Assembly: GCF_014904745.1 (NCBI RefSeq)
Contig: NZ_JACZCS010000008.1
Span: forward strand, 1-64,000
Reading direction: 5' to 3'
DNA length: 64,000 nucleotides
From: Oricola nitratireducens
GTDB lineage: Bacteria > Pseudomonadota > Alphaproteobacteria > Rhizobiales > Rhizobiaceae
Shown one piece after another: positions 2,176 through 12,506 of the stretch (positions within the stretch are counted from its first letter, which is position 1; the number at the start of each line of letters is the position of its first letter). A model generated the notes under the pieces. The model searched no databases. It was given only the letters and a program-made list of their open reading frames with translations, and was not told the DNA's origin. Both the position numbers and the translations under genes were made by a program.

Positions 2176-2461
2176 GGTCAGTCTCCTCTTTCGGGTTCGT
2201 GCCGGGGCGTCCGGCGGTTCGTTTCCCTGATCGTGGAGACAATTTGCCCGATGCCGGCTGAACGGAACCGGAAGGGCCCGTTCATCCGGCGTTCATGCCG
2301 CAAAAGGGCGCTTTGGCGGTGGTCTTGAACCGCTCTTCGGCAATCACCAAATAGGTTCTGCGGACGCCCCAACGGGTCCGCTGGCATCACCGGGTTGCGC
2401 CTATGAAGGGCAATCGAACATGCCAAACGCAAACCAGTCGCTCACGAATGGAGGACATCCA

Positions 2462-2929
2462 ATGCGTCACGTCGATTATTCGCCCCTGTTCCGTTCCACC
2501 GTCGGTTTCGACCGTCTTTTTTCGATGCTGGACACGCTTGCCCAGCCGGAAAACAACGGCCAGACCTATCCGCCCTACAATATCGAGCGGACTGGTGAGA
2601 ACGCCTACCGCATCACCATGGCCGTCGCCGGTTTCTCCGAAGACGACCTGACGATCGAAGCCCGCTCGAACGTGCTGAGCGTCGCCGGCGCCAAGCCGGA
2701 GGAAAGCACCGAAGAGAAGCGCGAATTCCTGCATCGCGGCATCGCGTCGCGGGCTTTCGAACGTCGCTTCCAGCTTGCCGACTATGTCGAAGTAAAGGCC
2801 GCCGAACTGAAGAACGGCCTGCTGCATATCGACCTGCAGCGCGAAATCCCCGAAGCGATGAAGCCGCGCAAGATCGATATCAAGAACGGCAAGGACGCCA
2901 AGCAGATCGAGGCCAAATCGGTCAACTGA
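2462..2929 (+). CDS. Small heat-shock protein, Hsp20/alpha-crystallin family
   Basis: 155 residues. It begins MRHVDYSPLFRSTVGFDRLF, the usual start of proteobacterial IbpA-type proteins, followed by an alpha-crystallin domain (about residues 38-130) with the AGFSEDDLTIE strand and the GLLHIDLQREIPE end. It is an ATP-independent holdase that keeps unfolding proteins soluble for refolding by DnaK/ClpB. The start at 2462 follows a strong GGAGG (2450-2454) 7 bases upstream; the in-frame start at 2420 lies before that site and was rejected. A CTTGAA at 2324-2329 could be a heat-shock -35, but no convincing -10 was found. A strong terminator follows at 2974-3000. Confidence 0.95.
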   Translation: MRHVDYSPLFRSTVGFDRLFSMLDTLAQPENNGQTYPPYNIERTGENAYRITMAVAGFSEDDLTIEARSNVLSVAGAKPEESTEEKREFLHRGIASRAFERRFQLADYVEVKAAELKNGLLHIDLQREIPEAMKPRKIDIKNGKDAKQIEAKSVN

Positions 2930-2973
2930 TCCCGCCGCGCGCCGGTTTCTCCCGGCCGGAAAGCGCGAGGATG

Positions 2974-3000
2974 AAAGGCGGGGGAGACCCCGCCTTTTTT
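2974..3000 (+). terminator. Rho-independent terminator after hsp20
   Basis: A 7-bp GC stem (GGCGGGG/CCCCGCC with a short GAGA-type loop), extended by A-T pairs, runs into six T residues at 2995-3000. It ends hsp20 transcription. With a weaker T tract it can also serve the opposing doxX operon. Confidence 0.85.
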
Positions 3001-3026
3001 CGTTTCAGGATTTTCCGGACGCGATG

Positions 3027-3635
3027 TCAGCGGAAACGACGGCCGAGAAGGTGGTCGAGCGACAGTTTTCCCGGACCGTTCACGACGATCATCAACAGGA
3101 CGAAGATCCACAGCATGCGCTGGTCGAAGATGATCGCGTCGGGAAACCGGTCGAACATCGATCCGATGAACTTTCCTTCCAGACCCAGATAGGTGACGTC
3201 GACATAGCTCTGCACGACGATGAAGACGATCATGCCGAGCGCCGCGACGCGGCTGAAAAGGCCGACGACGATCAGCAGCGGCAGCAGGATCTCGGACCAG
3301 GTGCCGAGAAGGACGATGACGTGCCAGGGGAAGAACGGCAGGGCCGTTTCGGAGTAACCGTATTGCTCGAATATCGGCGGCAGGATCGAGGCATAGGCGC
3401 CGGTCGAGGGATGCAGGAAGCCGAACAGGCCGTCGCCGAGCTTGTTCCAGCCGGAATTCAGGTAATAAAGCAGCAACAGGCTGGCGAAGACGAAGCGGGC
3501 GGCAAAGCCGTTGAACCATCCCGAAAGAAGGCGTTCCAGCCCCGAAAAAACCGCCTCATGAAGCCGGACGATCGCGCCGAGCGGCGCGGGAAGAGCGTGT
3601 CCCCGGATGTGTTTCATGTCTGCCGTGTCAGCCAT
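3027..3635 (-). CDS. DoxX-family membrane protein, last gene of the bufferin-type operon
   Basis: 202 residues with about four hydrophobic segments: around residue 45-65 (VFASLLLLYYLNSGWNKLGD), one near 105 (WHVIVLLGTWSEILLPLLIV), one near 130 (ALGMIVFIVVQSYVDV) and one near 175. The GTWSEILLPLLIVVGLFSR segment is typical of DoxX. DoxX relatives accompany DUF2282-DUF692-DUF2063 genes in many proteobacteria, where their role is not settled. It lies 19 bases downstream of the DUF2063 gene on the same strand, so co-transcription is likely. ATG 3635 is used; an ATG at 3617 (MKHIRGH) is an alternative. Confidence 0.85.
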   Translation of the reverse strand: MADTADMKHIRGHALPAPLGAIVRLHEAVFSGLERLLSGWFNGFAARFVFASLLLLYYLNSGWNKLGDGLFGFLHPSTGAYASILPPIFEQYGYSETALPFFPWHVIVLLGTWSEILLPLLIVVGLFSRVAALGMIVFIVVQSYVDVTYLGLEGKFIGSMFDRFPDAIIFDQRMLWIFVLLMIVVNGPGKLSLDHLLGRRFR

Positions 3636-3654
3636 GGCGATCTCCCCGTCCTCG

Positions 3655-4437
3655 TTATTGCGCCGTTTCGGCGGCGATGAATGCGCCGGTGGACAAGATC
3701 CCGCCGATCGCCTCGTTTATGTCGAATGTTTCCGCGGCCTCCATGCCGGCCTCCGCGGCCTCGCCGAGCGTTCCGCCGGACAGGAGGCGTTCAAAGAAGG
3801 CGTCGTGGCCGTCGGGCAGGGCGGTGACCATAATCTCCGTGCCGGGCCTGGTCACGAGCACGCTTTGGGCGCGCGCGGCATCGATCCGGCCGACCGTGTC
3901 CTGGCTGCGGTTGGCGTCGAAGATGTCGAAGACCGCGAAACCCGAGCGCACGAGCGCGGCGGCGGGGTGCGGCCGGAACGTCACGTCGGCGAGACAAGCG
4001 GGATCGATCGCGGCCAGCGCCTGCGGCGCCAGCGGCTCCAGATCGGCGGCGTGATAGGCCGTCAGCCAGGCGCGCTCGACCCGCGCGACATCGGCGAGAT
4101 AGGGCATGCGCGCAGCGTGTTCGAAATCCGCGACGAACGCCGGAAATTCATGGCCGTAGAGAAACAGGAGCGGCGAGACCGGCGGATGGGCGCGCACGAA
4201 TTCACGCGCCATGTCGCGGAAGAAGGATTCGCCGGTGATGCGCTGCACCGCCGGAAAGGTATCCGCCAGGGCGTTGATCAGGCTGACCGTGACATTGTTG
4301 CGATAGACATTGAACCGCTTGTCGGCCTGTTTGCCGTGCGGTCCGGTGACGGTTTGCGGCCTGGCGCGCGCCGGGTCGAGAATGGCGGCGCGGAACCCGA
4401 CGGCGTCGAGGTCATGGATGTCGTCAGCCGACGGCAT
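3655..4437 (-). CDS. bufC: BufC-like DUF2063 protein, putative peptide-binding partner of the DUF692 enzyme
   Basis: 260 residues. The N-terminus holds the DUF2063 DNA-binding-like domain (about residues 8-100), with [20 protein letters not shown] and [20 protein letters not shown], both hallmarks of the family; the rest is an alpha/beta C-terminal region. In bufferin and related systems the DUF2063 protein partners the multinuclear iron oxidase and helps deliver the precursor peptide (established for relatives, inferred here). Its first 14 bases overlap the end of bufB, indicating translational coupling. Confidence 0.85.
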
Positions 4438-5374
4438 GGCTGATTTTCCCGTGGCTCTTGCCCATCATGAAGGAATGCGCGGCTTCGTCGAGAATCCGGT
4501 CGGCGGCGGCGGCCTCGGAACGCAAAACCGGCCATTCCGGCAGATCGGAATCCCATTCGATCAGCGTCGGGATCGGGCCGGCCTGCCTGACGACGATGGC
4601 GTAGAGATCCCAGACCGCATCGGCGACCGGGGCATCGTGGCTGTCGATCAGCAGGGGCTCGCCCTCGTCGTCTTCCTGCACGGCGTGGCCGGCGAGATGG
4701 ATCTCGCCGACATGTTCCATCGGATAGTCCATCAGGTAGGAGAGCGGCGAAAAGCCGTGATTGGTGGCGGAGACGAAGACGTTGTTGACGTCGAGAAGCA
4801 GACCGCAGCCGGTGCGGTGCACGATCTCGCGGATGAAGTCGGTTTCGCTCATGGTCGAATTCTCGAAGACGACATAGGTCGAGGGGTTTTCGAGCAGCAT
4901 CTGCCGGCCGATGACTTCCTGCATGCGGTCGATGTGATCGCAGACATGGGCAAGCGTCTCGTCGGTGTAGGGCAGCGGAAGAAGGTCGTTCATGAAGACG
5001 TCGTCATGGGTCGACCAGGCCAGATGTTCGGATACGAGCCCCGGTTCGTAGCGGTCGACCAGCGCCTTGAAGCGGGCCAGATGGTCTTCGCTGAGCGGTT
5101 GCGGACCGCCGATCGACATGCAGACTCCGTGCAGCGACAGCGGGAAATCGCGGCGAACACGCTCCAGCGCGCGATGCGGAAAGCCGCCGTCGCCCATGTA
5201 GTTTTCGGCATGTACCTCGAGGAAACCGACCGGATCCGGGTCGTCCAGGATGGCGTCGAGATGGGTATGCTTGAACCCGACCCCGGCCGAAGCCGGGATA
5301 CGGGCGGTTCGCGCTGCAAACCGGGACGTGCCGGCGGCCGGGGCCGGGTCTTGCGAAAGGCGGGTCCTGTTCAT
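4424..5374 (-). CDS. bufB: BufB-like DUF692 multinuclear non-haem iron oxidase (MNIO)
   Basis: 316 residues, the usual MNIO/TIM-barrel size. Candidate metal ligands are visible in the family-specific order: EVHAENY (near 53-59), [52 protein letters not shown] and [11 protein letters not shown]. Such enzymes oxidise Cys residues of ribosomally made peptides; in bufferins they form 5-thiooxazoles that bind copper. The ATG at 5374 has a GGAGA site about 9 bases upstream; the longer frame to 5509 would run into bufA1. It lies 34 bases after bufA1, overlaps bufC, and is the enzyme core of the locus. Confidence 0.9.
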
Positions 5375-5408
5375 GGCAGTATCTCCGATTTGCAGCGTTT
5401 TCAGGCGA

Positions 5409-5738
5409 TCAGGCCGGCCGGTCGCGGTCGAGAGGCTCGGTCGAGCCGTGGCGGCCGCCCGGAACCATGATGTTGGCGCAGGTGCCGCCGGGGACGAAGA
5501 CCCAGGCATTACCCTGGAAGTCGACCGTCGACGTGCCCTGGCAGGTCGTGCCCGGGCCGGCGGCGCAATCGTTCAGTCCGGCGAGCGCGACGCCGTAGCA
5601 TTTCTCCTTGCCGGCATCCATTGCCGCCTTGCCTTCTTCCTGCGTCAGCGGCCCGGCATGGGCCATCGACGCCATGGCGGTTGCGACTGCGCCAGCGAGA
5701 ATGGCGCTGCTAAGTGCTGTCTTGGTTGTCTTGGACAT
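5409..5738 (-). CDS. bufA1: DUF2282 bufferin-like precursor peptide, second copy
   Basis: 109 residues. A Sec signal peptide (residues 1-28, ending MAHA) is followed by a mature part with exactly four Cys at 47, 58, 66 and 87, in the contexts [22 protein letters not shown] and GGTCANI. This is the DUF2282/BufA1 pattern, in which the central Cys residues are substrates of the DUF692 enzyme. The product should be an exported copper-chelating peptide. It ends EPLDRDRPA, identical to the other copy. An AGAGGAG site precedes the ATG. It is transcribed after bufA2 and before bufB. Copper binding is inferred from family knowledge. Confidence 0.88.
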
Positions 5739-5794
5739 GTGAAGCTCCTCTGTACTTCGGGTGCCGGGCTTTCGGCCGTCCGGCGAGGCCGGGT

Positions 5795-5859
5795 GCCGCC
5801 GGAAACCCGGCGGCGGGGAAGGCGGAAATATCCGCCTCCATTTCGCCTCGCGGCGAAAT
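5795..5859 (-). repeat. Three successive hairpins between the two precursor genes
   Basis: Three perfect inverted repeats sit head to tail in the 138-base gap: GCCGCCGG/CCGGCGGC (5795-5814, AAAC loop), AGGCGGA/TCCGCCT (5820-5837, AATA loop) and ATTTCGCC/GGCGAAAT (5840-5859, TCGC loop). None is followed by a T tract on the minus strand, so they look like mRNA stabilising or processing structures setting precursor-to-enzyme ratios rather than a full terminator. That role is inference. Confidence 0.7.
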
Positions 5860-5876
5860 TCGGGAAACCGCCGCGG

Positions 5877-6185
5877 TCAGGCCGGACGGTCGCGATCGAG
5901 CGGCTCGAGCGAACCCATGCGGCCGCCCGGCAATTCCATCGATTCACAGGTGCCATCCTCGACGTATTTCCAGGAGTTGCCCTGGTAATCCATCGTCGAC
6001 GTGCCCTGGCAGGTCGTGCCCGGACCGGCGGCGCAGTCGTTCTGGCCGGCCATCGCGACGCCGTAACATTTCACGTTGGCGGCGGCGGCGTCGGTCGCGG
6101 TGACGAGCTGCGCCCCCGAAATGGCGGCTGCGACGGCGCCGGCGAGAATTGCGCCGCTGAAAGCGGACTTGGTTGCTTTGGACAT
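5877..6185 (-). CDS. bufA2: DUF2282 bufferin-like precursor peptide, first (promoter-proximal) copy
   Basis: 102 residues. It has a signal peptide (about residues 1-35; [20 protein letters not shown]) and four Cys at 40, 51, 59 and 80 with the same spacing as the sister peptide (11, 8 and 21 residues between successive Cys). The shared core includes [22 protein letters not shown] and the EPLDRDRPA tail. Differences cluster in the leader end and before the last Cys ([11 protein letters not shown]). An AGAGGAG ribosome site lies about 7 bases upstream. As the first gene of the operon it should be the most abundant product, which suits a metal-buffering peptide. Confidence 0.88.
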
Positions 6186-6330
6186 ATGTGACTCCTCTGA
6201 AGGTCGTTGGCCGGGCTTTTCAGCCGCCCGGTGACCGCAGGAGTCGCAGAGGCGTCAATAAAACGGAAATCAACGCGGCGTTATCGGCCGTCACTTCACC
6301 GTGAGGAAAAGTTGAGCGGCGATTTTTTCC

Positions 6331-7383
6331 TTATGCGCCAAGAGTTTCGGCGAAGCGCTCGATATCGGCCTCTTCCGTCGCAAAGCTCGTGACCATGCGC
6401 ACGATCGTTTCCGAGGCGGCGAGACCGAGATTCATTCCCGCCGGCTCCGGCCAGTCGTAGAAGCGGACACCGGCTTCCTGCAGGCGCTCGAACTCGGTTT
6501 TCGCGAGCACGGCGAAGACCTCGTTTGCCTGCGGCGCCCAGGCAAGGCGGGCCTTGTCGCTCGCGGCGATCGCGCCGGCCAGCGCCTTGGCCATGGCGTT
6601 GGAACGGGCGGCCATGTCGAGCCAGAGGCCGTTTTCGAAATAGCCGAGAAACTGCGCGGCGGCGAAACGCGACTTGGAGAACAATTGCCCGGAGCGCTTG
6701 CGCAGATAGGCCATGTCGCGCGCCATGGCGGGATCGAAGAAGACGAGCGCCTCGGCGCACCAGCAGCCGTTCTTGGTGCCGCCGAAGGACACGATATCGA
6801 CGCCCTGGCGCCAGGTCATGTCGGCGGGCGAGCAGCCGAGCGAGACCAGCGCATTGGCGAAACGCGCGCCGTCCATGTGCAGCGGCAGGCCATGGTCGCG
6901 GCACACGGCGGCAATCGCGGCGATCTCGCCGGGGTCGTAGACGGTGCCGATTTCCGTCGCCTGCGTGATCGACACCGCCATGGCGCGGCCGATGTTGACG
7001 TTGCCCGGCGAAAACGGCTCGACCGCGTGGCGCAGGGTTTCGGCCGAGAACTGGCCGTTCCCGCCTTGCACCGGGCGGATGCGCACGCCGCTTGCCAGAA
7101 ACTCCGGCGCGCCACCCTCGTCCTCGCGGATATGGGCGTCGGGATGGGCGAAGGCGACGCCGCCGGTACGGTTGACGGCGGCAAGCGCCAGCGAATTGGC
7201 TGCCGTGCCCGTCGGCAGGAACCAGACCGAGACCTCGTGCTCGAAGATATCCGCGAACCGCTGCTCGGCCTCCCGGTCGATATCGCCGGTCCCGTAGGCG
7301 GCGTTGAAGCCGCCGGCGTGCCTTGCGAGGGATGCCGAGATTTCGGGATGGGCGCCGGCCCAGTTGTCGGAGGCGAAGAACAT
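6331..7383 (-). CDS. ltaE: Low-specificity L-threonine aldolase
   Basis: 350 residues of the fold-type I PLP aldolase family. It starts MFFASDNWAGAHPEI, a typical start of alphaproteobacterial threonine aldolases. PLP-binding features are PTGTAANSLAL (phosphate contact), HMDGARFANAL (Asp contacting the pyridine N) and SFGGTKNGCW, whose Lys forms the Schiff base. The enzyme cleaves threonine or allo-threonine to glycine and acetaldehyde in the cytoplasm. ATG 7383 is preferred over an upstream start that adds 29 unrelated residues. It is monocistronic: 145 bases separate its stop from the buf operon. Confidence 0.9.
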   Translation of the reverse strand: MFFASDNWAGAHPEISASLARHAGGFNAAYGTGDIDREAEQRFADIFEHEVSVWFLPTGTAANSLALAAVNRTGGVAFAHPDAHIREDEGGAPEFLASGVRIRPVQGGNGQFSAETLRHAVEPFSPGNVNIGRAMAVSITQATEIGTVYDPGEIAAIAAVCRDHGLPLHMDGARFANALVSLGCSPADMTWRQGVDIVSFGGTKNGCWCAEALVFFDPAMARDMAYLRKRSGQLFSKSRFAAAQFLGYFENGLWLDMAARSNAMAKALAGAIAASDKARLAWAPQANEVFAVLAKTEFERLQEAGVRFYDWPEPAGMNLGLAASETIVRMVTSFATEEADIERFAETLGA

Positions 7384-7784
7384 GTCGGTTTCCCTTATTG
7401 CCTGGCCGCGGGGATCGCTCAGACTACCAATTGCGAAAGGAAGTAACCCGATTCGCCGCTCTGGCGACATTTTCGATCATTTCCGAGGCGATTTTTTTGC
7501 ATTTGCATCTTGAGAAAAGTCCCGGTATCTGTCATACGAATATGACAGTAATGCTGTCCTATTTTGCATTGAGGGTCAAACGGTGTGGAAATCGCCGTTC
7601 GATCCGTATACGCGTCTGCAGGCGCAGGGCACCGATCCGATCCTGACGAGCGGTATTCCGACCTCACCGGCAGCAAGGCCGGCGAAGCGTCGGAGCGACG
7701 GTCCAGGGCGGGTGTCAGCCATGGCCCGAAATGCTAGATAGGACGACTGAAACGCGCGCTTGCGCCGAGACGGAGGATTGAGCG
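7384..7784. other. Intergenic region between ltaE and gltB
   Basis: About 400 bases carrying the divergent promoters of ltaE and gltB. It contains the palindrome at 7530-7547. A 52-codon GTG frame at 7583-7741 has no ribosome site and no recognisable product, so it was not called. No RNA gene or mobile element is visible. Confidence 0.6.
7530..7547. promoter_or_regulatory. Palindromic candidate operator upstream of gltB
   Basis: TGTCATA-CGAA-TATGACA is a perfect 7-bp inverted repeat with a 4-base centre, 238 bases before gltB. A weak TTGAGA at 7510-7515 lies upstream, so the palindrome could overlap a promoter. The binding protein is unknown; an Lrp/MarR/GntR-type dimer would suit the geometry. 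Confidence 0.4.

Positions 7785-12506
<4,722 letters not shown>

Follow-up and report, generated by a model that had tools for sequence, protein, structure and literature searches.

The window analysed here is a 64,000-nt stretch of DNA from the marine bacterium Oricola nitratireducens (contig NZ_JACZCS010000008.1, positions 1 to 64,000). On its reverse strand, positions 6185-3027 hold five co-directional genes forming a further operon of the published Buf1 bufferin family, and the start of the maturase gene bufB carries an inverted repeat predicted to fold as an RNA hairpin. The operon of this member of Hyphomicrobiales opens with two genes for DUF2282 precursors: bufA-1 (5877-6185, 102 amino acids (AA), short linker type), the ortholog of the precursor in five other Oricola genomes, and bufA-2 (5409-5738, 109 AA, long linker type), which groups with precursors mostly linked to the extracytoplasmic function (ECF) sigma factor type ECF16. 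These are followed by bufB (4424-5374, 316 AA) for a maturase of the multinuclear non-heme iron-dependent oxidative enzymes (MNIO), extended at its N-terminus by about 25 residues that include an RFA motif, by bufC (3655-4437, 260 AA) for a DUF2063 partner protein, and by doxX (3027-3635, 202 AA) for a DoxX-family membrane protein.

An earlier note, made from the letters of this DNA, had named the five co-directional genes with four cysteines in each DUF2282 peptide, an overlap of bufB and bufC (it measures 14 nt) and a match to the published bufferin layout. Profile hidden Markov models bear out this gene set. Pfam scores were all over cut-off: 83.9 and 80.8 bits for DUF2282 (PF10048) with bufA-1 and bufA-2 (cut-off 22.4), 360.4 bits for MbnB_TglH_ChrH with bufB (cut-off 25), 88.9 bits for DUF2063 (PF09836) with bufC (cut-off 27.2) and, weaker yet above the cut-off of 23.6, 27.5 bits for DoxX (PF07681) with doxX. 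Judged by these family matches, the assignment to Buf1 holds at the level of family and operon. The NCBIfam BufB model NF050167 recognised bufB with 389.7 bits (cut-off 310); bufC and doxX matched solely HvfC/HvfX models, under cut-off, the sole match of bufA-1 was BufA2, also under cut-off (26.8 of 60), and bufA-2 had none. No match to bufA-2 was found among PDB sequences either. Across 159 aligned BufB proteins, many positions with His, Glu or Asp do not vary; an alignment was also made with the solved relatives 3bww, 8hci and MbnB, and the nearest named relatives of the window's BufB come from Oricola (82-91% identity). The four-Cys pattern of both precursors is matched by 189 of the 194 homologues taken from the loci collected, and an N-terminal signal sequence, judged by eye, is present in both. 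The genome encodes one MNIO and two DUF2282 proteins. Past the Pfam domain, both precursors end in a tail LPxxRxGSxxxLxRDxP (5877-5933 and 5409-5465), which fits 114 of the 194 precursors and could be a recognition or fold element.

The inverted repeat spans the start of bufB on the reverse strand. Arm 1 (5385-5397) lies in the bufA-2/bufB gap, where its end abuts and partly covers the bufB ribosome-binding site; the complementary arm 2 (5312-5324) lies inside bufB, at codons 17-21. The sequence GCTGCAAATCGG (5396-5385) is able to pair with CCGGTTTGCAGC (5324-5313), and with the outer C-G pair included the helix has 13 pairs, 12 Watson-Crick and one G-U. The arms are 60 nt apart and enclose the start codon in the loop. 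Such a repeat is found in all six Oricola genomes, changed on both sides in one of them (L219), and the stem of the window was reached by none of 100 leader shuffles and none of 100 synonymous-codon shuffles. Rfam gave no match up to an E value of 1 in window positions 2400-7800; in ten other loci, searched at the gathering threshold, it found tRNA and mmgR only, away from bufB. The small RNA mmgR (RF00519) was seen several kb from the bufferin operon in four of these ten loci (L041 11727-11807, L144 9416-9493, L049 222-296 and L112 10666-10742).

For a wider survey we collected 190 loci with a BufB match. Eleven without a nearby precursor or usable start, including the tandem loci L034 and L035, were dropped, and the remaining 179 were reduced to 161 non-redundant ones. 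The score of each was its best uninterrupted stem joining the early codons of bufB to the 22 nt ahead of the gene. We called a locus suitable (97 of 161) if the gap did not exceed 50 nt and the N-terminal extension measured 45 nt or more, limits that were set after the first survey results. A bufB start passed when its stem outscored at least 96 of 100 shuffled versions, which about 5 of the 97 would be expected to do. The leader shuffle was passed by 67 of the suitable starts and the synonymous-codon shuffle by 46; of the other 64 loci, 7 passed the former and 4 the latter. With the coding part fixed at 90 nt, the leader test was passed by 69 of 97 bufB starts vs. 2 of 90 for bufA, 1 of 90 for bufC and 2 of 92 for doxX, and by 5 of 188 other long reading-frame starts led by a ribosome site. 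When the native leader-bufB pair was set against chimeras with other loci, it ranked first of 61 in 16 of 161 cases (2.6 expected).

The arms differ between lineages, yet match each other within each: AGGGGAGGCAAA with TTTGCCTCCCTT, GATCCGGAAAC with GTTTCCGGATC and GAGCGGGACG with CGTCCCGCTC. In an 11-row alignment of Oricola and its kin, 94.4% of the helix cells can pair vs. 25-43% when the arms are slid, two-sided changes occur in 6 of 13 pairs (11 cells), and four of five measures were reached by 0 or 1 of 500 shuffles. Such pair counts lean towards structure because the one-register sets were chosen after the stems had been seen; the leader and synonymous shuffles and the other-gene controls are independent of this choice of rows. 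A covariance model built from the 11 rows and run on 56 hand-picked loci found the bufB starts of two lineages outside its build, L143 (E 5e-5) and L127 (4e-4), followed by weak matches, some of them away from bufB. We conclude that the predicted hairpin is specific to bufB starts, and that it is conserved and covarying.

Over the 67 loci with the hairpin, the base of the helix follows the stop codon of the precursor at 8-31 nt (median 17), the stem has 7-15 bp (median 11), arm 1 ends at -15 to -1 and arm 2 starts at +26 to +69. On a BufB tree of 72 of the 161 rows, counted as printed, the hairpin is present in 37 of 48 rows of one clade (support 99) and in 5 of 24 rows outside it; 24 of the 72 loci were named by hand, many of these being hairpin loci, and the others were drawn at random, so that the tree is enriched for hairpin loci. 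Four loci of the clade are from Burkholderiaceae, and three of the four have the hairpin.

Upstream of bufA-1, on the same strand, lies a block (6265-6304) composed of TCAC-N6-GTGA (6304-6291), ATAACG (6284-6279) and TTGATTTCC (6273-6265). Among 160 non-redundant regions upstream of bufA, 78 have a GTAAC-N16/17-CGAA box (class A; mean 0.3 in shuffles), a match to the Caulobacter sigmaF box and to the printed Sinorhizobium meliloti RpoE7 promoter (PMC3511200, PMC6180224; here and below, statements on published papers refer to the accessible parts of their text). The core TTGATTTCC or a near variant (class B) is found in 57 regions. It is exact in 49 of them, where it precedes the start by a median of 89 nt, and shuffles have none; the remaining 25 regions have neither box. 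In 46 of 57 regions the class B core has a TCAC-N6-GTGA element (at most one mismatch) within the 60 nt before it, as compared with 22 of 1140 shuffled stretches; ATAAC or TAACG is found close before the core in 25 of 57. All six Oricola genomes are of class B, and no GTAAC-N16/17-CGAA box lies in the 250 nt preceding bufA-1. By these motifs, the bufA promoter of the window is of a second class, other than the sigmaF/ECF16 type. In 57 of the 78 class A loci the ECF16 box is preceded by a palindrome like TCACGAA-TCGTG (at most two mismatches) that starts 25 or 26 nt ahead of it, which suggests a second regulator beside the sigma factor.

The promoter split runs parallel to the presence of NrsF. 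In a family survey of 199 genomes, 104 of them with DUF2282, all 30 class A loci among 93 non-redundant loci were in genomes with an over-cut-off NrsF, and all 43 class B loci in genomes lacking one, the latter including L077 and L202 (genomes G099 and G163), whose sub-cut-off NrsF matches were scored as absence. Of the 20 loci with neither box, 13 had NrsF and 7 did not. These counts are not independent events, because most class B loci sit at the same place in the chromosome: a glutamate-synthase gene (recognised by eye) is a neighbour in 45 of 57, a threonine-aldolase-like gene in 40, hsp20 in 42 and a hydrolase gene in 45, each in none of the 78 class A loci, and Pfam names were obtained for four of the neighbours. 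The statement of the earlier note that no ECF sigma gene is adjacent fits the other promoter class (57 of 160) and the genome-wide result, in which NrsF, the protein searched for in place of every ECF sigma gene, was not found; nor did the two further Oricola genomes in the family survey (G058, G146) give a match. The split suggests that many bufferin operons of the group stand outside the sigmaF system known from Caulobacter.

The exact class B block occurs in the genome solely at bufA; with N5 spacing, 6 sites (the exact one at bufA and five others) were found vs. 4 in a reversed control, and therefore no class B regulon was found. An N6-spacing search gave 12 matches vs. 1 in the reversed control, but it missed the bufA site and was rejected as having the wrong spacing. 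No regulator common to class B loci was seen among the 16 largest neighbour clusters, viewed without family searches on them, and a sigma-70 scan gave no promoter-like site. The hairpin itself occurs under both promoter classes, in 28 of 56 class B and 34 of 70 class A loci, and in 4 of 20 with neither box.

By analogy with relatives, the two exported precursors would be modified at their cysteines by BufB with its partner BufC and would then bind excess periplasmic copper. Within this system an RNA hairpin between the bufB 5′ leader and codons 17-21, with the start codon enclosed, may serve as a cis control on maturase synthesis by keeping initiation at bufB low; alternatively, initiation may depend on ribosomes reaching the precursor stop codon 34 nt upstream. 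With low or coupled initiation, much peptide and little enzyme would therefore be made. Most simply, bufB would have a device for translational attenuation or coupling by which the maturase stays low relative to the precursor, and on the pattern of conservation the hairpin probably limits or couples maturase translation. The puf operon of Rhodobacter has an intercistronic stoichiometry hairpin between a small abundant product and the downstream genes; in Oricola, by contrast, arm 2 lies inside the coding sequence and the start codon in the loop. We put the probability that this is a Buf1 operon with a bufB leader hairpin acting as a cis control on maturase synthesis at roughly 0.6. The genes, their families, the promoter class, and the conservation, covariation and bufB-start specificity of the hairpin are the computed part of this reading; we infer formation of the hairpin in cells, its action on translation, the copper function and the modification chemistry. 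Over the 67 hairpin loci, the mean predicted unpaired probability of the ribosome site is 0.19 in native sequences vs. 0.30 in synonymous versions, 0.34 at bufA and 0.38 at bufC.

Several results weigh against a control on translation by this hairpin. In the window the ribosome site lies mostly just outside the helix and is predicted to be no more closed (0.55 unpaired) than in synonymous versions (0.45). A native site whose closure is equalled by no more than 1 of 20 synonymous versions is found in just 18 of the 67 loci. Folding of the window sequence is moderately better than that of shuffles (z -2.2; 3 of 200 as good). RNAalifold found no common pairs in a mixed 48-row MAFFT alignment; in a 28-row set the arms are nearly invariant, with a two-sided change in 1 of 10 pairs; and in the 11-row alignment the fifth measure, further pair types, was reached by 51 of 500 shuffles. 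The stem test failed in 30 of the 97 suitable loci. An outside group of 94 further loci (one of 95 was dropped), about 78 of them from other orders, was near chance, with 9 passing and about 5 expected.

The main rival to translational control is an element of mRNA stability or processing, in which the hairpin would block an exonuclease or be cut by RNase III just after bufA, the bufA segment then outliving bufBC as in the puf operon of Rhodobacter. A helix base 8-31 nt behind the precursor stop codon and a stem of 7-15 bp suit such a role, as does a ribosome site in the window that is not strongly closed, and we regard this alternative as possible, if unlikely. For it the reach of the hairpin into the bufB leader and coding sequence would be needless. 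The hairpin also tracks short gaps and long N-terminal extensions (67/97 vs. 7/64), a comparison in which an arm in bufB was required and other gap hairpins were left uncounted.

That no RNA structure is selected here, arm 2 being kept as protein and the likeness of the leader being due to chance or to shared purine-rich ribosome sites, is improbable. Arm 2 does often encode an R-F-P/A motif (RFP or RFA), and the nearly invariant arms of the 28-row set and the mixed alignment without consensus pairs are what would be seen in that case. Yet the non-coding leader arm tracks arm 2 through large changes, the excess over synonymous shuffles and chimeras and the two-sided changes in 6 of 13 pairs speak for pairing, and three other gene starts of the same operons are near chance. 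A DNA operator for a dimeric regulator is very improbable: inverted repeats can be operators, but the arms are 60 nt apart in the window, vary widely in position over the 67 loci and differ by lineage with complementarity kept, which a fixed DNA-binding protein would not require.

The two precursor genes pose a separate question. Adjacent DUF2282 pairs occur in four surveyed genomes (G000, G058, G084 and G100); within the genus, two of six Oricola genomes have two copies and each of the six has one MNIO gene. The pair in G084 and G100, which belong to two other genera (L034 and L035), is a different tandem, with CAAGxHDC spacing in one copy and CAAGxGTTC in the other. The two proteins of the window have 62% identity, and both carry EPLDRDRPA in their C-terminal part, as a plain duplication inside the Oricola operon would predict. 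Identity to the precursor of the other five Oricola genomes is 84-91% for BufA-1; BufA-2 is 83% identical to its counterpart in G058 and otherwise nearest to precursors of ECF16-box operons (75% to the class A precursor of L123). A BufA tree of these short proteins (54 rows hand-picked from 194, 109 columns kept) places copy 2 in a clade (support 100/99) whose 24 rows include 18 of class A, apart from copy 1, which falls among its genus orthologs. It is better evidence than the linker types, a crude pattern under which several long linkers were labelled short. An approximately unbiased (AU) test rejects a single clade for all Oricola precursors (p 5.6e-5), and the operon's BufB groups with other Oricola (99) and then, at lower support (88), with Roseitalea and kin. 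Because of the AU rejection and the clade of copy 2, plain duplication is hardly credible; judged by the trees, the tandem is a pair of mixed origin, which gene capture and an old duplication followed by loss would explain alike. The gap between the two genes (5739-5876, reverse strand) is strongly structured, with predicted hairpins (z -4.8), and might further set bufA-1 apart.

The Buf1 core of precursor, MNIO, DUF2063 and DoxX genes, in some cases with sigma factor and NrsF genes, was described by Antoine et al. 2025 (PMC12452194), and Gadgil et al. 2026 (PMC13097082) grouped bufferin-type peptides together as copper metallophores of the thiooxazole kind. Caulobacter vibrioides CC3254-CC3257, the type case, has the same precursor-MNIO-DUF2063-DoxX order, a signal sequence and four cysteines (PMC12452194, PMC3511200). 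Oricola differs from it in having two precursors of different lineages, no NrsF found, a class B promoter and the bufB leader hairpin. The S. meliloti RpoE7 (ECF16) operon SMb20530-SMb20527, compared by its authors with CC3254-CC3257, likewise has four genes including DUF692 and DUF2063 members (PMC6180224); it is driven by an ECF16 box (GTAAC...CGAA), whereas the operon of the window has no such box. Captophorins (fontiphorin, oxazolin and gonophorin) share an MNIO with a PME1 partner and 5-thiooxazole copper peptides (PMC13097082), their precursors having EGKCG repeats and those of Oricola being of DUF2282 type.

To the earlier note, the organism-specific form of the operon had further seemed unstudied. 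For the tandem layout this must be withdrawn, as 'BGCs with tandem precursor genes' (biosynthetic gene clusters) are already in print in general terms (PMC12452194), but the hairpin, the promoter class and the mixed precursor origin were not found described in the accessible literature. Word searches for hairpin and stem-loop in the accessible text of PMC12452194, PMC13097082, PMC6180224 and PMC3511200 gave no description of a bufB hairpin. The wider literature searched, on bufferins, MNIO and the coupling of ribosomally synthesized and post-translationally modified peptides, gave none either; subscription papers lay mostly outside it, as did three papers that mention both MNIO and hairpin, and the hairpin may be described elsewhere. 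On the precursor:maturase balance, nothing was found in the bufferin literature examined, again within its accessible parts.

For the group as a whole, we see a slightly better than even chance that a conserved cis RNA hairpin, unmatched in Rfam, sets the maturase:precursor ratio in Hyphomicrobiales, joined in Oricola by a second, sigmaF-independent promoter class and by one maturase pair serving two precursor lineages. The mixed tandem is a ready-made natural case for asking whether a single BufBC pair takes precursors from two different lineages, which the Discussion of PMC12452194 leaves open. With a specific, covarying RNA element at the start of the maturase gene, the precursor:maturase balance would become testable, and the hairpin suggests a built-in control on the amount of enzyme made per peptide.

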